NCBI GenBank assembly: GCA_015066665.1
Contig: SVNX01000013.1
Coordinates: 1 to 57,641 of the forward strand
Direction: 5' to 3'
Origin: Ruminococcus sp.
GTDB lineage: Bacteria; Bacillota; Clostridia; Oscillospirales; Ruminococcaceae
Length of the DNA stretch: 57,641 nt
Shown: positions 42,347 through 50,836 of the stretch, piece by piece
Layout: each line of letters begins with the position of its first letter
Position numbering within the stretch: the first letter of the stretch is position 1
Program-made: the position numbers and the translations under genes
Notes under the pieces: model-generated
The model's input: only the letters and a program-made list of their open reading frames with translations
Databases searched by the model: none
Told to the model about the DNA's origin: nothing

Positions 42347-44638
42347 ATGAAGAAGTCACTTCTGAAAAGAGTAATGGCTGCTGCAGTTGCAGTACCGGTT
42401 GCTCTGACACAAACTGTTCTCTGGTCTGTGGGCGCTGCTGAAGCAGAGGCTGCTGCAGAGACAATCACAGTGGATACCTTTATGAATGTACCCGTTGACG
42501 CTGAGATCAATGTTGTAGACGGTGCATATGTTCAGGAGTCCATCTGGAACAACACACTCGACTCCGCTCTGGCTTCCATCGCTGGCGGCACTTATGATCT
42601 GGATGGCGCTGCAATGGCTGCTGCAGTTCAGGGCGACAGCTGGTATGTGAACGCTCTGAAGGGCGCACTGGCAAACGGCGGTAAGGCAACTGTAACTGTT
42701 ACAACAGGCAAGGTTGTTATCGCTGCTGACGTTGACTATGATTACGCTGCAGATGCTTCCGAGGCTCTGACAAAGAAGCTCGAGGGCAAGGGCGTGACCA
42801 TCGCTGATGCAAACCTGAAGGGTTCTGTTGTGATCACAGTTGATACTGCAACTCTGGCAGGCGACAAGACTGTTCCTTTCACTGTAGAATGCAAGGACAA
42901 GAATGGCGCATCTGTTGATCTGTCCACAATGCTGGCAATGGTAAAGGATGAGTATGCAAACGTTGCTGCACAGGCTCTGGCTGGTGCTGCTGACGAGGCT
43001 ACTGCTGCTGAGATCGCTGATCTGATCGCTAAGGCAAACGACAAGATTGCTAAGGCTGAGGAGAAGATGGACGAGGCTCTGGCAGGCGGCAAGTCCAAGA
43101 GCTACACCGGCGCTGATTACAACGATGTAATCGCTCAGGTGAAGGCTGAGTATGCAGGCAATGCTGTTGCTGACAAGATCCCCGCTTCCATTGGCGAGGC
43201 TGTTCAGAATTCTGTTGCAGTAAGCGTATTTACTGAGGCTCTGAACCAGGTTGGCGCAATCATGGCTGATAGTGCTTACACAATCGATATGAATCTGCCC
43301 GATGTTGGTGCCGCTGCTGAGACCGTAAAGGATGTAACTGTTACTCTGGACGCTGGCGTAAACTGCTATGCTTACACAGACGGTACAATCGATGAGGACC
43401 TGACTGCTGAGGACAAGGCAATCATCGCTGAGGCTCTCCAGGCTATGGTAGGCGAGGATGAGGTTGTTATCGCAGACTCCATCGTAACCTACAAGGTTGT
43501 AACTGCTGAGGCTAACGGCAACGCAATGACATTCAATGGCGATGCTTTCTTCAACGTAGAAAGATACATTGAGTTTGATGTTGAGTCTGTTGACGAGACC
43601 ACAACAACTGAGGAAACAACCACAACAACTGAGGACACAACCACAACTGAGGATACTACAACATCTACAGATGATACAACATCCACAGATGATACAACAT
43701 CCACAGATGATACAACATCCACAGATGATACAACATCCACAGATGATACAACATCCACAGATGACACAACATCTACAGATGATACAACATCTACAGATGA
43801 TACAACATCTACAGATGATACAACATCCACAGATGACACAACATCTACAGATGATACAACATCCACAGATGACACCACAACTACAGACGTAACCACAACA
43901 ACCGATGATACAACATCTACAGATGACACAACATCCACAGATGACACCACAACTACAGACGTAACCACAACAACCGATGATACAACATCCACAGAGGATA
44001 CCACAACAACTGAGGTTACAACTACAACAGCTGTTGAGTCCACAATGGTTGTTGAGGCTAACGCAGTGAATTTCTACTTCTCTCATGATGAGGAAGCATT
44101 CGACGCTGAAGAGCTGATCGCAAATGCTGAGATCACTGTTACTTACACTTACGAGGATGGCAGCACAACAACAGAGAACGTTGCAGTTGACTACAGCCTG
44201 TTCTCCTTCGCTGCTGAGAATCCTGCAGAGCTCTATGCTGACGTAAATGAGGCTTATGCTGCTGTTGAGATGGCAATCAGCTACAATGGTGAGGACACCG
44301 GCGCAATTGTTACTGTTTACATCGGTGTAAAGGGTGACGCAACTCTCGACGGTATTGCAGATGCAAATGACGCTGCTGCAGTTCTGATCTACTCCGCTGC
44401 TAAGAACGCAGGTAACGAGGCTTATGTATACAGTGCAGAAGATGAAGTGCTCGAGCAGCTCGCATTCTTCCTGGCTGATACAGATACAGAGTCCCAGACC
44501 TACGGTGCTGACGGCGAAGTTGTAGACGCAAATGACGCTGCTAACATCCTGGTATTCGCTGCTGACAGAGGTGCAAACCCTGACAAGACCATTGCAAAGG
44601 CTTGGGAAGATGTTCTGAACCCCGAGACTGCTGCGTAA
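42347..44638 (+). CDS. secreted protein with Thr/Asp repeat region and dockerin-like C terminus
   Basis: 763 aa. A signal peptide (about 1-38) precedes an Ala-rich helical N-terminal region of unknown fold (about 40-405). Next is a low-complexity linker (about 415-565) made of TSTDDT hexapeptides, then a beta-type segment (about 566-655). The C-terminal dockerin-like pair follows, GDATLDGIADANDAAAVLIYSA at about 662 and ADGEVVDANDAANILVFAA at about 719. These repeats resemble the YAA dockerin type in the SGNH protein. Codons are biased as in highly expressed genes. A cohesin-like anchored protein follows 81 nt downstream and may be its partner. The N-terminal function is unknown. Confidence 0.85.
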   Translation: MKKSLLKRVMAAAVAVPVALTQTVLWSVGAAEAEAAAETITVDTFMNVPVDAEINVVDGAYVQESIWNNTLDSALASIAGGTYDLDGAAMAAAVQGDSWYVNALKGALANGGKATVTVTTGKVVIAADVDYDYAADASEALTKKLEGKGVTIADANLKGSVVITVDTATLAGDKTVPFTVECKDKNGASVDLSTMLAMVKDEYANVAAQALAGAADEATAAEIADLIAKANDKIAKAEEKMDEALAGGKSKSYTGADYNDVIAQVKAEYAGNAVADKIPASIGEAVQNSVAVSVFTEALNQVGAIMADSAYTIDMNLPDVGAAAETVKDVTVTLDAGVNCYAYTDGTIDEDLTAEDKAIIAEALQAMVGEDEVVIADSIVTYKVVTAEANGNAMTFNGDAFFNVERYIEFDVESVDETTTTEETTTTTEDTTTTEDTTTSTDDTTSTDDTTSTDDTTSTDDTTSTDDTTSTDDTTSTDDTTSTDDTTSTDDTTSTDDTTSTDDTTSTDDTTTTDVTTTTDDTTSTDDTTSTDDTTTTDVTTTTDDTTSTEDTTTTEVTTTTAVESTMVVEANAVNFYFSHDEEAFDAEELIANAEITVTYTYEDGSTTTENVAVDYSLFSFAAENPAELYADVNEAYAAVEMAISYNGEDTGAIVTVYIGVKGDATLDGIADANDAAAVLIYSAAKNAGNEAYVYSAEDEVLEQLAFFLADTDTESQTYGADGEVVDANDAANILVFAADRGANPDKTIAKAWEDVLNPETAA
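43661..43984 (+). repeat. 18-bp in-frame tandem repeat (minisatellite)
   Basis: Twelve near-identical 18-bp units (ACATCYACAGATGAYACA) run from 43661 to 43876, each encoding TSTDDT. A 36-bp variant block at 43877-43912 recurs at 43949-43984 with two standard units between, giving a 72-bp higher-order repeat. Unit differences are mostly synonymous T/C changes. Confidence 0.95.
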
Positions 44639-44719: not shown

Positions 44720-45538
44720 ATGAGAAAGATCAATTTCAAGAAGGCTATGGCAGCTGTTGCTGCACTGTCCATGGTTGCTTGTGTAGCTGCAATTCCCGCT
44801 TCTGCATCTGCTGAGGGCGCTACTGTAGAGATCACACAGATCGAGCTGTCTCTGGATGAGCTGGCTGCTATGAACTATGTAGTTCCGATCGATGTTACTC
44901 TGACTGAGAACAAGGGTATCAATGCATTCGCATTCGGTCTGGAGATCAATGATCGTTGCACATTCGAAGTTAACTTCGATGCTCAGGAGATCATGATGTC
45001 TGTTGAGGCTGCAAAGTCCAACACTCAGAACTTTGCTTGGGTAAACGGCGCTAACACAAGAACATACTCCAAGACTGGTAACATTACTGGTGTATATGTG
45101 ACAGTTCCTTCTGATGCAAAGCCTGGCGATGTATTCGAGATCAACTATGTTGATACTTCCCTCGAGGGCAACGCACACTTCTGGAACGACACCACAACTG
45201 GTGACAAGTGGGTAGACGCTGGTACAGTGGACTACGTAAATGGTTGGATCAAGATCAAGGAAGAGACAACTACAACAGAAGAGACCACAACAACTGAGGC
45301 TACAACTACAACTGAGGCTACAACAACAACTGAGGCTACAACTACTGAGGCTACAACTACAACTGAGGCTACAACAACAGCTGCTACAACAACAGCTGCT
45401 ACTACAACCACAGCTAAGCCCGGCAGCACAGCTTCTCCTGCAACTGGCGCAGCTGACGTTCTCCCGATCGTTGGTGTTGCTGCTGCTGTAGCAGTAGTAG
45501 GCGGCGTTGCTATGGTTTCCAAGAAGAAGGAAGACTAA
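44720..45538 (+). CDS. cell-wall-anchored cohesin-like protein
   Basis: 272 aa. A signal peptide (about 1-31) precedes one domain (about 33-178) with a cohesin-like strand pattern: VPIDVTLTENKGINAFAFGL early, VTVPSDAKPGDVFEINY late. A Thr/Glu/Ala linker (about 180-235) leads to SPATG, a hydrophobic helix and a KKKED tail, which resembles a sortase signal with SPxTG in place of LPxTG. This is the plan of single-cohesin anchoring proteins (ScaE) of ruminococci, which fix scaffoldins or dockerin proteins to the wall. The cohesin call rests on pattern only. AAAGGAAA lies upstream of the ATG at 44720. Confidence 0.7.
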   Translation: MRKINFKKAMAAVAALSMVACVAAIPASASAEGATVEITQIELSLDELAAMNYVVPIDVTLTENKGINAFAFGLEINDRCTFEVNFDAQEIMMSVEAAKSNTQNFAWVNGANTRTYSKTGNITGVYVTVPSDAKPGDVFEINYVDTSLEGNAHFWNDTTTGDKWVDAGTVDYVNGWIKIKEETTTTEETTTTEATTTTEATTTTEATTTEATTTTEATTTAATTTAATTTTAKPGSTASPATGAADVLPIVGVAAAVAVVGGVAMVSKKKED

Positions 45539-45654: not shown

Positions 45655-45678
45655 AAATCCACCCCGAAGGGTGGATTT
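45655..45678 (-). terminator. terminator of the rex operon
   Basis: The stem AAATCCACCC/GGGTGGATTT has a tetraloop. On the minus strand it is followed by CTTTTTG, just after the rex stop codon. Confidence 0.88.
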
Positions 45679-45681
45679 TTC

Positions 45682-46320
45682 TTATTCTTCATCACGATGA
45701 TGCATGCAGTATGCAAGTGTCATCAGACTGTCGCCCAGATGAACGTTTTCCACAATGATGGTGGGATTGTTGAGTTTCAGATCGTAGTGGCTGAAATTCC
45801 AGAAGCCCTTGATGCCCAGTGAAACCAGACATTCAGCCAGCTCCTGCGCAGCTCCCTTCGGGATGCACAGCACAGCCACCTCGGGCTGATGGGCACGACA
45901 GAACGTTTCAAGCTGTGTCATCGGCTGAATGGGGAGTCCCGCTGCCGATGTACCGGAGAGATCGGGATTGCTGTCGAAAATACCAACCAGCTCACAGCCT
46001 CGCTTCCGGAAATCCAGATGCGTGGCCACGGCCTTGCCAAGATTACCTGCACCGATCAGGACAACGCCGGTATGCTCCTGCACACCGAGAATCCGGCCGA
46101 TCTCCTCCCGCAGAGCCTTGACATGATAGCCATAGCCCTGCTGACCGAAGCCGCCGAAGCAGTTGAAATCCTGACGGATCTGGGAGGCGGACAGACCCAT
46201 GCGCTGTGCCAGCTCACGGGATGAGATCCGCTCGATGTTTTCATTTTCAAGCTCGCCCAGGAAGCGATAATACCGTGGAAGACGGCGAATCACAGGGGTC
46301 GAAATTACCTGCTTAGCCAT
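45682..46320 (-). CDS. rex: redox-sensing transcriptional repressor Rex
   Basis: 212 aa. An N-terminal winged helix (about 1-80, SSRELAQRMGLSASQIRQDFN) precedes a Rossmann NAD(H)-binding domain with GAGNLGKAV (about 92-100). Rex leaves DNA when NADH rises and controls fermentation and redox genes. It is the last gene of the aconitase-IDH operon, 12 nt after icd. A probable Rex site overlaps the operon promoter at 50.8 kb, so it should autoregulate. It ends at a strong terminator. Confidence 0.97.
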   Translation of the reverse strand: MAKQVISTPVIRRLPRYYRFLGELENENIERISSRELAQRMGLSASQIRQDFNCFGGFGQQGYGYHVKALREEIGRILGVQEHTGVVLIGAGNLGKAVATHLDFRKRGCELVGIFDSNPDLSGTSAAGLPIQPMTQLETFCRAHQPEVAVLCIPKGAAQELAECLVSLGIKGFWNFSHYDLKLNNPTIIVENVHLGDSLMTLAYCMHHRDEE

Positions 46321-46332
46321 TTCACATGCTCC

Positions 46333-47547
46333 TTACTGCATCAGTGCTGCGAGACGAGTGTTGATTTCCTCGAGGAACGCCTTGGAGTTGACCTTCTTCT
46401 TATTCTCGAGAGAGGACAGGAGGTAGAGGTCACCGGTCATCACGCCATCCTCGATGGTCTGGATGGTTGCCTTCTCCAGCTTGTCAGCATACTCGCAGAG
46501 TGCCGGAATGTTGTCCAGCTCGCCGCGCTTACGCAGCGCACCGCTCCATGCAAAGATGGTAGCAACAGAGTTTGTGGAGGTCTCTTCGCCCTTGAGGTGC
46601 TTGTAGTAGTGACGCTGTACGGTGCCGTGAGCAGCCTCGTACTCGTAGATGCCATCGGGAGACACCAGAACGGAGGTCATCATTGCCAGAGAGCCGTATG
46701 CAGTGGAAACCATGTCGGACATCACGTCGCCGTCATAGTTCTTGCAGGCCCAGATATAGCCGCCGTTCGAACGGATGACACGAGCCACAGCATCGTCGAT
46801 CAGTGTGTAGAAATACGCAATGCCGGCAGCCTCAAACTTTTCCTTGTATTCAGCATCGAATACTTCCTGGAAAATATCCTTGAAGCGGTGGTCATACTGC
46901 TTGGAGATGGTGTCCTTGGTGGCAAACCATACATCCTGCTTGAGGTCGAGACCATAGTTGAAGCATGCACGAGCAAAGCCGGCGATGGAATTGTCGATGT
47001 TGTGCAGACCCTGAATGATGCCGTCACCCTTGAACTCATGGATGAGCTGACGTGTCTCGTTGCCTTCCTTATCGGTGAAGACCAGCTCAGCCTTGCCGCC
47101 GCCCTTTACCTGCATTTCAGTGTTCTTGTAAACGTCACCGTATGCATGACGAGCGATGGTGATGGGCTGTGTCCATGTGGGAATGTAGGGTGTGATGCCC
47201 TTTACGAGGATGGGGGTGCGGAATACAGTGCCATCCAGAATCGCACGGATTGTGCCGTTCGGGGACTTCCACATCTGGGTGAGGTTGTACTCGGGCATTC
47301 TTGCTGCATTGGGTGTGATGGTGGCACACTTAACAGCAACGCCGTACTTCTTGGTCGCCTCGGCGCTGTCAAATGTCACCTGATCCTTGGTCGCTTCACG
47401 ATGCTCAAGACCGAGGTCATAGTATTCGGTGTTCAGCTCCACATAGGGAGTGATGAGAATGTCCTTGATCCACTGCCAGAGAATTCTGGTCATCTCGTCG
47501 CCATCCATCTCGACGAGGGGGGTGGTCATTTTGATTTTTTCAGCCAT
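46333..47547 (-). CDS. icd: NADP-dependent isocitrate dehydrogenase (homodimeric type)
   Basis: 404 aa. [18 protein letters not shown] and the substrate motif [16 protein letters not shown] mark the homodimeric NADP-IDH family, also found in eukaryotes, rather than the E. coli type. It makes 2-oxoglutarate and NADPH, mainly for glutamate in an anaerobe with a partial TCA cycle. The ATG at 47547 has GGAGG 8 nt upstream; the longer start at 47568 overlaps the SD. It lies between a small membrane protein and rex. Confidence 0.97.
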
Positions 47548-47589
47548 GGGAATTACCTCCATTTTCAATATTATTGTTGCAGTCCGTCA

Positions 47590-47805
47590 TCAGGTTCCGA
47601 CAACGTAATACCAGATACTCATCACCACAAGCATGATGATGGAACAAATCACACTGATCTTTTTCGGTGAAACACTTGGAAAATACTTCGGCAGAAAGTA
47701 ATGTACTGCCAGAACCAGTGCTGTGACGATCACAAACAGTGCAATGTCAGAAGGCTCGTCGAACCAGTCAGCACGGCGAAGCATAGACAGTGATGTGTTC
47801 ATCAT
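47590..47805 (-). CDS. 71-aa two-helix membrane protein, copy A
   Basis: 71 aa with two hydrophobic segments (about 20-40 and 50-69) and a middle motif YFLPKYFPSVSPKKISVI. It has the same length as copy B (48533-48748) and is clearly similar, so the two are paralogues. The start overlaps the stop of the PARG gene (ATGA), with AGGAG 5 nt upstream. No family is recognised. The location between a PARG-like enzyme and icd suggests a membrane partner of the cassette. Confidence 0.85.
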   Translation of the reverse strand: MMNTSLSMLRRADWFDEPSDIALFVIVTALVLAVHYFLPKYFPSVSPKKISVICSIIMLVVMSIWYYVVGT

Positions 47806-48533
47806 ATATGCTCCTTTGATGATCCTGCCGCCTTCGGATCGGCGAACAGAATCCGGATATGATCAGGTACAAAGCGGTTGATTGCACGTTCGAACATCGG
47901 ATAGACGTCCTCACGCCTGTTGCCGAACTCACCGCAGCCGAATGCCCCGAATACGATCGTATCGGGATTCTGAGAAACCGCAAGCTGCACGATCCTTGTG
48001 ATCCTGCGTTCCATGACGGCATTGCAGTGTTTTTTTGAGAAAAAGAATCTGGCAAATGTCCGGTTGACTGCCGGACAAGTAATGAAATCACAGTGAATCG
48101 CTGTTTCCAGCATGGTACCGTCATTTCTGCGGATAATGGGGACATTTGCCGAATAGATCAGCGTATCCGTATAATCCGGAAGCACATGCAGACGGTTTCT
48201 GCGGTAGTAGGTCTTCTGTGTGCAGATGGTGTGGTACAGCAGGGAAGCCCTGCAGAGTGCCTCCTCCTGCGCATTACCGCCAAGGAGATAGCCGCCGCCG
48301 GGAAACATGGCATTGGCAAAATTGAGGGCAATACAGCGTTTGCCGGAATGTTCCAGCACACAGGAGATCGTATCCATCCTGACAAAATGTTCCGCTATGC
48401 GGAAAACGGAATCCCTCTGCACCTCGGGTGCAGAGGTTTCCGTGAATGTTTGTGAATGCATGTCCGGAAAATGCCCGTCTTTGAAGATACGGTGATTTTC
48501 CAGCATGATCCGGATGTTTCGCAGCATCGGCAT
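47802..48533 (-). CDS. bacterial-type poly(ADP-ribose) glycohydrolase-like macrodomain protein (TIGR02452)
   Basis: 243 aa. ALNFANAMFPGGGYLLGGNA with QEE gives the GGG-x7-QEE signature (residues 79-91) of bacterial PARG, whose second Glu is catalytic. The late TIVFGAFGCGEFGNR motif closes the macrodomain. Such enzymes remove ADP-ribose polymers or related modifications. The stop of copy B and the start of this gene share one base, and its stop overlaps copy A by 4 nt, so the three are translated as a block. No ADP-ribosyltransferase is seen in the window. The biological target is unknown. Confidence 0.88.
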   Translation of the reverse strand: MPMLRNIRIMLENHRIFKDGHFPDMHSQTFTETSAPEVQRDSVFRIAEHFVRMDTISCVLEHSGKRCIALNFANAMFPGGGYLLGGNAQEEALCRASLLYHTICTQKTYYRRNRLHVLPDYTDTLIYSANVPIIRRNDGTMLETAIHCDFITCPAVNRTFARFFFSKKHCNAVMERRITRIVQLAVSQNPDTIVFGAFGCGEFGNRREDVYPMFERAINRFVPDHIRILFADPKAAGSSKEHI

Positions 48534-48748
48534 CAGTCACCGACGATGAAGATGCCGGCGATGATGATGACAAAACCAATTCCGTAGGAAATCACAGAAA
48601 CGGTTTTATCTGAAAGATTCGGCAAGAAGTGTTTCAGAAGATACTGAATGACAAGTACCAGTACAGCTGTTCCCAAGATGAGTACAAGATCCTTCCAGGA
48701 ACGAATCCGGAAACGGCGTGCCATATTTTCGTAGATTGTTAACATCAT
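48533..48748 (-). CDS. 71-aa two-helix membrane protein, copy B
   Basis: 71 aa. Hydrophobic segments at about 20-40 and 50-69 flank QYLLKHFLPNLSDKTVSVI, matching copy A position for position (for example ALVLAVHYFLPKYFP there against VLVLVIQYLLKHFLP here). The N terminus is basic (ARRFRIRSWKD). It lies 33 nt after aconitase and shares its TGA with the ATG of the PARG-like gene. Confidence 0.85.
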   Translation of the reverse strand: MMLTIYENMARRFRIRSWKDLVLILGTAVLVLVIQYLLKHFLPNLSDKTVSVISYGIGFVIIIAGIFIVGD

Positions 48749-48781
48749 TTGCTTTACCTCTCATATCATGGGAAGGCCGGA

Positions 48782-50719
48782 TTACTTCAGATTCTCTCTG
48801 GTGTAATCGAGCAGGCCGCCTGCCAGCATGATGTCCTTGGTTCTGCCGGTCAGCTCGCAGAGAACCGGAATTTCCTTGCCGGTGGTCTTGTTGAGAACGG
48901 TGAACTGTGTCTCGCCAGCCTCAACCTTTGCACGGATATCAGCCAGTTCCAGTACATCACCCTGAGAAATGGCATCGTAATCTGCTTCGTTGACAAATGT
49001 CAGCGGCAGGATACCGGCATTCACGAGGTTTGCACGGTGGATACGAGCGAAGGACTTCACGAGAACAGCCTTGATGCCCAGATACAGAGGTGCAAGTGCA
49101 GCATGCTCACGAGAGCTGCCCTGACCGTAGTTGGAGCCGCCCACAATGATGCTCTTGCCCAGTTCCTTGGCTCTGGTCGGGAATGCCTCATCGCATACGG
49201 TGAAGCAGTGCTGGGAAATGGCAGGAATATTGGAACGCAGAGGAAGGATCTTTGCGCCGGCCGGCATGATGTGGTCGGTGGTGATGTTGTCCTCAACCTT
49301 GAGGGAAACCGGTGCTTCGATGGAAGCTTCCAGCGGAGCAGTCTCCGGATAGGGCTTGATGTTCGGGCCGCGGAGGATCTCCACATCAGCAGCCTCGTCC
49401 TCAGAAGCGGGCAGTGCGATCATGTTGTCGTTCACTGTGAACTTCTCAGGCAGAACGAACTCGGGCATCTCGCCGATCTCTCTGGGGTCGGTCAGGTAGC
49501 CTGTGACTGCGGAAATGGCAGCCAGCTCAGGGGATACGAGGTAGATCTGACCATCCTTGGTACCGGAGCGGCCGAGGAAGTTTCTGTTGAAGGTACGCAG
49601 GGAGATACCGCCGGAGTTCGGGGACTGACCCATACCGATGCAGGGGCCGCAAGCGGACTCGAGGATTCTTGCACCGGCTGCGATCATGATGGACAAGAGA
49701 CCCATGTCAGCCATCATATTGAGCACCTGCTTGGAGCCGGGTGCGATGGAGAGGGAAACGTCCGGATGTACAGTCTTGCCCTTCAGGATGTGAGCAACCT
49801 TCATCATATCGAGGAGGGAGGAGTTTGTGCAGGAACCGATGCAGACCTGATCAATCTTCAGCTTGCCGATTTCCTCGCAGCTCTTTACATTGTCAGGGGA
49901 GTGCGGACATGCAGCCAGCGGAACAAGCTCGGAGAGGTTGATATCAACCACTTCATCGTAAACCGCATCGGGATCTGCGGACTGTTCGCTCCATACTTCG
50001 CCTCTGCCCTGTGCCTCGAGGAACTGCTTTGTGATCTCGTCGGACGGGAAGATGGAAGTGGTGGCACCCAGCTCAGCACCCATGTTTGTGATGGTGGCAC
50101 GCTCCGGTACGGACAGGGTCTTGACACCCTCGCCGCAGTACTCGATAACCTTGCCGACGCCGCCCTTAACGGACAGTCTGCGCAGTACTTCGAGGATCAC
50201 ATCCTTAGCAGCAACCCAGGGAGAGAGCTTGCCGGTCAGGTTTACCTTGACAACCTGAGGATAGGTGATGTAGTATGCACCGCCGCCCATGGCAACTGCA
50301 ACGTCCAGACCGCCTGCACCGATGGCGATCATACCGATACCGCCGCCTGTGGGAGTGTGGCTGTCAGAGCCGATCAGGGTCTTGCCCGGAATGCCGTAGC
50401 GCTCCAGATGTACCTGATGGCAGATACCATTGCCGGGACGGGAGAAATGAATGCCGTGCTTCTTGGCTACAGAACCGATGAAGCGATGGTCATCGGCGTT
50501 CTCGAAGCCGTTCTGCAGGGTGTTGTGATCGATATAGGCAACACTGCGCTCAGTGCGGACTCTCGGTACGCCCATTGCCTCAAATTCCAGATACGCCATG
50601 GTACCTGTTGCATCCTGTGTCAGAGTCTGGTCGATGCGGATACCGATCTCCTGACCCTTGATGGGCTCACCGTCAACGAGGTGTGCACGCAGGATCTTTT
50701 CTGTTAATGTCAAACCCAT
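48782..50719 (-). CDS. acn: aconitate hydratase
   Basis: 645 aa, matching the shorter clostridial/mitochondrial-like aconitase clade. It isomerises citrate and isocitrate with a [4Fe-4S] cluster. Cluster cysteines are in CIGSCTNSS and CGPCIGMGQ, and GSDSHTPTGGG and GGSNYGQGSSREHAAL are also diagnostic. The start is the ATG at 50719 behind AAAGGA. As first gene of the operon it is followed by the small membrane/PARG cassette, icd and rex. The promoter carries a Rex-like site. Confidence 0.97.
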   Translation of the reverse strand: MGLTLTEKILRAHLVDGEPIKGQEIGIRIDQTLTQDATGTMAYLEFEAMGVPRVRTERSVAYIDHNTLQNGFENADDHRFIGSVAKKHGIHFSRPGNGICHQVHLERYGIPGKTLIGSDSHTPTGGGIGMIAIGAGGLDVAVAMGGGAYYITYPQVVKVNLTGKLSPWVAAKDVILEVLRRLSVKGGVGKVIEYCGEGVKTLSVPERATITNMGAELGATTSIFPSDEITKQFLEAQGRGEVWSEQSADPDAVYDEVVDINLSELVPLAACPHSPDNVKSCEEIGKLKIDQVCIGSCTNSSLLDMMKVAHILKGKTVHPDVSLSIAPGSKQVLNMMADMGLLSIMIAAGARILESACGPCIGMGQSPNSGGISLRTFNRNFLGRSGTKDGQIYLVSPELAAISAVTGYLTDPREIGEMPEFVLPEKFTVNDNMIALPASEDEAADVEILRGPNIKPYPETAPLEASIEAPVSLKVEDNITTDHIMPAGAKILPLRSNIPAISQHCFTVCDEAFPTRAKELGKSIIVGGSNYGQGSSREHAALAPLYLGIKAVLVKSFARIHRANLVNAGILPLTFVNEADYDAISQGDVLELADIRAKVEAGETQFTVLNKTTGKEIPVLCELTGRTKDIMLAGGLLDYTRENLK

Positions 50720-50796: not shown

Positions 50797-50825
50797 ATTT
50801 TACTACAAAAAACAAAATTTGTCAA
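50797..50825 (-). promoter_or_regulatory. promoter of the acn-icd-rex operon
   Basis: Minus-strand TTGACA (plus 50820-50825), a 17-nt spacer and TAAAAT (plus 50797-50802). The leader is about 70 nt. Confidence 0.9.
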
Positions 50826-50836
50826 GAATTTCACAA
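50819..50836. promoter_or_regulatory. Rex operator candidate
   Basis: TTGTCAA-GAAT-TTCACAA differs at one base from the Rex consensus TTGTGAA-N4-TTCACAA. It covers the -35 of the acn-icd-rex promoter, so bound Rex would block RNA polymerase, and Rex would control its own operon. Confidence 0.8.

Follow-up and report, generated by a model that had tools for sequence, protein, structure and literature searches.

A microbial-type PARG gene in a variable slot between acn and icd of Ruminococcus-like Oscillospiraceae

The acn-icd-rex locus and its upstream region

The window, by which we mean the whole 57,641-nucleotide stretch of Ruminococcus sp. DNA that was analyzed, carries six genes of a presumed unit on its minus strand. 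The first gene, acn (48782-50719, aconitate hydratase), is followed by TM_up (48533-48748), encoding a 71-aa two-helix protein, by a microbial-type PARG of 243 aa (47802-48533), by TM_dn (47590-47805), encoding a 71-aa paralogue of TM_up, by icd (46333-47547, NADP-dependent isocitrate dehydrogenase; NF006156, 667.7 bits) and, as the last gene, by rex (45682-46320, redox-sensing repressor; NF003990, 279.1 bits), with a terminator-like hairpin 3' of rex (45655-45678, minus strand). The ATG starts of acn and icd were chosen by eye. The interval between these two genes (47548-48781, minus strand) is referred to here as the slot, which in the window holds TM_up, PARG and TM_dn. The TM_up stop and the PARG start form TGATG, a 1-nt overlap, and the PARG stop and the TM_dn start form ATGA, a 4-nt overlap; the start of TM_dn is uncertain because this gene opens with ATGATG. 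This gene order, the overlaps and the active-site motif of PARG were all described in the initial annotation, and our reading of the window agrees on each of them. TM_up and TM_dn are paralogues as judged by alignment (17/52 identical residues, E 2e-8 in a single comparison), and neither reaches a Pfam or NCBIfam cut-off. A 10-pair hairpin with a terminator-like tail lies within the PARG coding region (48414-48436, minus strand). Elsewhere in the window, 42347-44638 and 44720-45538 encode two proteins that look secreted and contain long Thr-rich stretches; neither has a Pfam match at E 0.001.

Upstream of acn we find a promoter-like sequence, TTGACA-17-TAAAAT (50797-50825, minus strand; 11/12 match), as the candidate acn promoter, whose -35 box is overlapped by a Rex-like palindrome, TTGTGAAATTCTTGACAA (50819-50836, minus strand). 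The palindrome is close to the Clostridia Rex consensus TTGTTAANNNNTTAACAA given in the available part of PMC8457756, which also reports a Rex site at icd of C. thermocellum; compared with those Clostridia regulons, the putative site of the window is distinguished by its overlap with the -35 box and by a right half that reads TTGACAA. When perfect matches of TTGTNAANNNNTTNACAA were sought across the 2.03-Mb assembly, TTGTGAAATTCTTGACAA was the sole one, and a single perfect site is few for a Rex regulon. Sixty regions upstream of acn (the window and 59 loci) contain 18 perfect Rex-like matches and 20 with one mismatch, the best sites having two or more mismatches in the other 22; the left half TTGTTTA occurs in 19 of the 60. 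The 38/60 regions with no more than one mismatch stand against 0.44 expected from shuffles, an expectation that overstates the case for Rex because the 60 loci are related, and only the left half of the palindrome is new evidence since its other half, TTGACA, is also the -35 box. Operon membership and this Rex-like site are what would tie PARG to NAD(P) status.

The PARG clade and its linkage to acn and icd

The assignment of the central gene to the PARG family stands. The protein exceeds the cut-offs of both TIGR02452 (E 2.3e-48, 165 bits, cut-off 50) and PF10021 (E 3.4e-25, 89.6 bits, cut-off 23.5), and the closest solved structures, 3sig (9.6e-24) and 5zdb (3.6e-22), the latter of which we take to be the Deinococcus enzyme, were both deposited as PARG. 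By reading, the segment GGGYLLGGNAQEE matches the signature GGG-x7-QEE. Sequence family and signature are thus shared with the microbial-type PARGs (DUF2263/TIGR02452/PF10021; 3SIG, 5ZDB; DRB0099 of D. radiodurans), and the setting differs: the window gene sits between acn and icd, and DRB0099 in a putative RNA/DNA repair operon, according to the available text of PMC11833690. The predicted model is confident, with a mean pLDDT of 91.6 (prediction alone). The window's assembly (77% complete) has one TIGR02452 gene. Among 394 genomes of the order, the best PARG match from another taxonomic family reached E 1e-45, and the four intact PARGs within the taxonomic family reached E 3.2e-100 or better. 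A viral origin of PARG was considered and set aside; 21 relatives lie on viral contigs, and their top identity is 42%.

Genome contigs were scanned with an alignment of 11 PARG sequences, giving 238 relatives, the best 80 of which were analyzed. QEE is kept in all 80, in the form GG[GA]..QEE (GGG in 45, GGA in 35), and the median dN/dS of PARG is 0.14 over 85 pairs; purifying selection acts on the enzyme. PARG adjoins acn and/or icd in 73 of these 80 best relatives, and the order is acn-PARG-icd in every one of the 64 loci with both flanks readable. One neighbour is visible and the contig ends on the other side in 9/80, and neither neighbour is seen in 7/80. Downstream, rex follows icd in 49 of the 70 PARG loci that have icd, some of these contigs ending early. 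The linked relatives include the named strain R. flavefaciens FD-1 (L129).

A tree of 100 PARG proteins, built quickly and with long-branch warnings, collects 74 linked and 3 unlinked rows (L042, L065 and L066) in one clade with an SH-aLRT of 96; L059 and L106, whose frames seem disturbed, entered it shortened. The tie of PARG to acn and icd, as first proposed from the window, is real. In the 54 loci where acn, PARG and icd are all present, the distances of PARG correlate with those of acn at r = 0.78, compared with 0.90 for icd and acn, and PARG is the faster-evolving gene, with a mean distance of 0.44 vs 0.13 for acn and 0.16 for icd. Such vertical persistence in the slot is no proof of functional coupling. 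The unlinked member in L066 (7001-7702), about 55% identical, lies away from acn and icd on a contig labelled Neisseriaceae, which may reflect transfer or misbinning. A neighbouring clade of five rows (SH-aLRT 99), whose fork with the linked clade is left open by the tree, has PARG upstream of addB. In L043 (8156-16718) the order is PARG-addB-addA-SIR2, with AddB and SIR2 recognized by Pfam and AddA by eye; an AddB homologue, 55-57% identical, also lies downstream of PARG in L118, L120, L122 and L128.

The two-helix proteins, the slot and its exchange

The initial annotation took the two membrane proteins and PARG for a coupled cassette, and by the test that it set itself this part fails. Two-helix proteins occur on both sides of PARG in 0/64 relatives with both flanks readable, and the trio was found in the window only. 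Counted on stop-to-stop frames, two-helix proteins lie upstream of PARG in 13/67 and downstream in 4/70 readable flanks; a first census of open reading frames had given 11 and 3, having missed those whose longest frame enters acn. The loci with a match accordingly number 17/73 rather than 14, and some of the extras may represent other membrane segments. In 12/64 relatives PARG is bordered on each side by a gap shorter than 120 nt. The window's nearest relatives carry one two-helix copy each, on opposite sides of PARG (L051 upstream, L050 downstream), and the trio may therefore represent an earlier arrangement that these relatives have lost in part, or else a gain in the window. As a unit, TM-PARG-TM was also rejected because two-helix proteins are about as common where intact PARG is missing: they occur in 15/74 gaps with PARG and in at least 12/54 without an intact copy (p = 0.83), one of these 12, G209, holding a PARG remnant.

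Across 247 genomes, all 13 two-helix hits at E 2e-5 or better fall between acn and icd, and 8 of the 13 come from genomes that had contributed no seed; 20 weaker hits (8e-4 to 9e-3) lie outside acn-icd, mostly as parts of longer frames. The profile was iterated on slot genes, and 1 of 1500 shuffles reached E 0.00093. Because every seed came from the slot, more distant kin elsewhere may have escaped the search, and the members in G035, G158 and G201 are doubtful since the search of the 247 genomes did not recover them. We conclude that the two-helix proteins are a separate slot family and not an obligate partner of PARG; TM_up and TM_dn could touch PARG in this species.

The gap between acn and icd is a variable gene slot. 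We found icd in 132 and acn in 131 of the 247 genomes, and 93 same-strand acn-icd pairs within 12 kb; the gap measures no more than 130 nt in 31 of these and is longer in the other 62 (the pairing took 113 of 138 icd rows and 98 of 133 acn rows; the remaining rows hold no same-contig pair). Intact PARG is present in 8/62 longer gaps, and a ninth copy, in G237, adjoins icd, the acn of that genome being on a different contig. The remaining 54 longer gaps hold TraX (at least 24), DUF3795 (at least 12), two-helix proteins (at least 12), DUF6630 (at least 4) and others, numbers that come mostly from queries with one sequence each and should be read as minima. No family was recognized in 16 of the 54, some of which have room for a tiny gene at most. 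The cargo recognized most often in these gaps of other genomes (L151-L204) is TraX-like membrane proteins. PARG remnants are found in G209 and G240, and probably also in G156.

Some slot genes look to have been exchanged between species. Among 1596 locus pairs, 139 are unsaturated, with a median ratio of PARG to flank dS of 1.59, and the two clearest pairs with low PARG dS are L079/L082 (0.057, vs 0.88 for acn and 1.29 for icd; outside the unsaturated set) and L110/L111 (0.062, vs 0.41 and 0.55; within it). As a control, the lowest acn/icd dS ratio among 212 pairs is 0.52. In two hand-picked pairs, the two-helix gene shows a dS of 0.019 (L053/L056, 79 aa) against 0.50 for acn and of 0.043 (L055/L059, 73 aa) against 0.37 for acn. 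Sliding identity was followed in four pairs, hand-picked because their cargo dS looked low. In L079/L082, identity is mostly 82-87% in acn, rises to as much as 100% in PARG, drops to 51-66% in a stretch that separates PARG from TraX, returns to 92-95% in TraX and is 77-86% in icd. In L110/L111 it stays at 96-99% across the final third of acn and the slot and is 84-94% in icd, and L053/L056 has 96-98% near the two-helix genes, compared with about 90% in acn and 83-88% in PARG; L055/L059 shows a weak rise only. Recombination offers the simplest reading of these peaks, the sequences coming from metagenome assemblies in which chimaeric joins are possible. Capsule loci are variable loci flanked by core genes, whose cargo is exchanged through the conserved flanks; the acn-icd slot differs from them in holding small accessory genes inside a central-metabolism operon. 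We entertain, tentatively and at well under even odds, the stronger proposal that the acn-icd TCA operon is a recombination-fed cassette slot with acn and icd as the homology arms by which Oscillospiraceae of gut and rumen would trade PARG, slot-specific two-helix proteins, TraX and DUF3795, bringing an ADP-ribose eraser under redox-linked expression. If true, the slot would exemplify the exchange of genes within a core operon, and it brings with it a small membrane-protein family whose strong hits all fall in acn-icd gaps.

Function of PARG and rival explanations

PARP and DarT were sought in 27 hand-picked genomes. PARP exceeds the cut-off in 0/27, and hence in 0/9 that bear PARG; one match, in G028, is sub-threshold at 20.1 bits. 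DarT is present in 1/27, again G028, one of the 9 PARG-bearing genomes, on a contig other than that of PARG; none was found in the window's assembly (77% complete), and the window PARG differs from DarT-DarG toxin-antitoxin pairs in having no adjoining DarT. An association with SIR2 seen in the hand-picked set (8/9 with PARG vs 7/18) was not borne out over the 247 genomes (8/9 vs 161/238, p = 0.28) and was rejected; in genomes at least 90% complete the counts are 8/8 with PARG vs 132/177 (p = 0.20). The available text of PMC11833690 states that bacterial PARGs reverse RNA ADP-ribosylation and protect E. coli from an ADP-ribosylating toxin. We think it likelier that PARG clears ADP-ribose adducts than that it belongs to a membrane-bound NAD(P) module, because PARP exceeds the cut-off in 0/27 genomes and DarT is present in 1/27, SIR2 is unassociated, and bacterial PARGs can reverse RNA ADP-ribosylation and give protection from a toxin.

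The explanation that we prefer, to which as a whole (slot, resident PARG clade, redox-linked co-expression and adduct clearance) we assign a probability of roughly 0.57, would run as follows. The acn-icd-rex operon of Ruminococcus-like Oscillospiraceae holds a variable gene slot between acn and icd, where a PARG clade whose active-site motif is intact has long been resident. This clade has been inherited mainly vertically, with occasional loss, and from time to time it has moved between species along with adjacent slot genes; homologous recombination in the flanking acn and icd is the probable mechanism. Within the window, TM_up, PARG and TM_dn are probably transcribed from the promoter that overlaps the Rex-like site, and PARG would thereby be made alongside enzymes yielding NADPH and 2-oxoglutarate. 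The protein itself is most likely a soluble hydrolase clearing O-glycosidically attached ADP-ribose, for example at RNA 2'-OH or 5'-phosphate ends, in a role of repair or protection.

The slot might instead be a neutral or weakly selected landing site, with PARG and the two-helix genes as passengers functionally unconnected with aconitase, isocitrate dehydrogenase or Rex. The diverse cargo, the 16/54 longer gaps without a recognized family, the 31/93 gaps of at most 130 nt and the PARG remnants all suit this explanation, which we nevertheless regard as unlikely: QEE in 80/80 best relatives and a dN/dS of about 0.14 speak for selection on the enzyme, the linked clade is nearly pure (74/77), and strong two-helix hits are confined to the slot in 247 genomes, even if none of these three observations shows a link to acn or icd function. 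We give about the same weight to PARG being an orphan immunity enzyme that counters the ADP-ribosylating toxins of competitors and is retained in a favourably placed operon, next to other genes that are swapped between species. Bacterial PARGs shield E. coli from the ADP-ribosylating toxin RhsP2, according to the available text of PMC11833690, and our clade, known from sequence, shares the enzyme family and possibly a protective role; the exchange and loss of slot genes, and the counts in PARG-bearing genomes (PARP over the cut-off in 0/9, DarT in 1/9), would also fit, as against the purifying selection on PARG and the lack of any PADLOC match for it.

Less probable again is that PARG acts on ADP-ribose carried by the operon enzymes, or on sirtuin by-products, in a redox-coupled loop; a regulatory loop on Acn and Icd is of low probability. 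The operon position, the Rex-like site and the PARG-addB-addA-SIR2 order of the neighbouring clade (L043) would agree with it, but SIR2 is not associated with PARG, no transferase was found among the six genes of the operon (Pfam, NCBIfam), and PARG does not cut the protein-ribose bond, as the available part of a review has it (PMC7050489). The same part describes SirTM-macrodomain operons with GcvH-L and LplA2, which resemble the window in placing an ADP-ribose hydrolase in a metabolic operon with a redox link; they differ in that neither sirtuin nor GcvH nor lipoyl ligase is found among the window's six genes (Pfam, NCBIfam) and in that the hydrolase is of another class. The initial annotation had envisaged a membrane-associated ADP-ribose-clearing module, in which PARG is held by two membrane proteins. 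We consider it very improbable: the window does show overlaps on both sides of PARG, and small membrane-type proteins flank PARG in part of the relatives, but the 0/64 loci with two-helix proteins on both sides and the absence of association with PARG (15/74 vs 12/54) weigh against it.

In bacteria of gut and rumen, a gene for a predicted ADP-ribose-stripping enzyme thus sits within a core metabolic operon, and searches of an open-access library found no paper on an acn-PARG-icd arrangement. The physiological roles of bacterial PARGs are called unknown in the available text of a 2025 paper (PMC11833690), and a PARG clade tied to one metabolic operon, including that of R. flavefaciens FD-1, offers a well-defined setting in which to test them. 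The tree's 17 divergent TIGR02452 proteins are far off, separated from the linked clade by a long branch, and none of 45 loci of divergent PARGs, whose flanks are short (usually 1.5 kb), matched acn, icd or rex. Some divergent PARGs are fused to other domains, namely ADP-ribosylglycohydrolase (L229, L230), GDSL lipase (L228, L233) and DUF1810 (L231).
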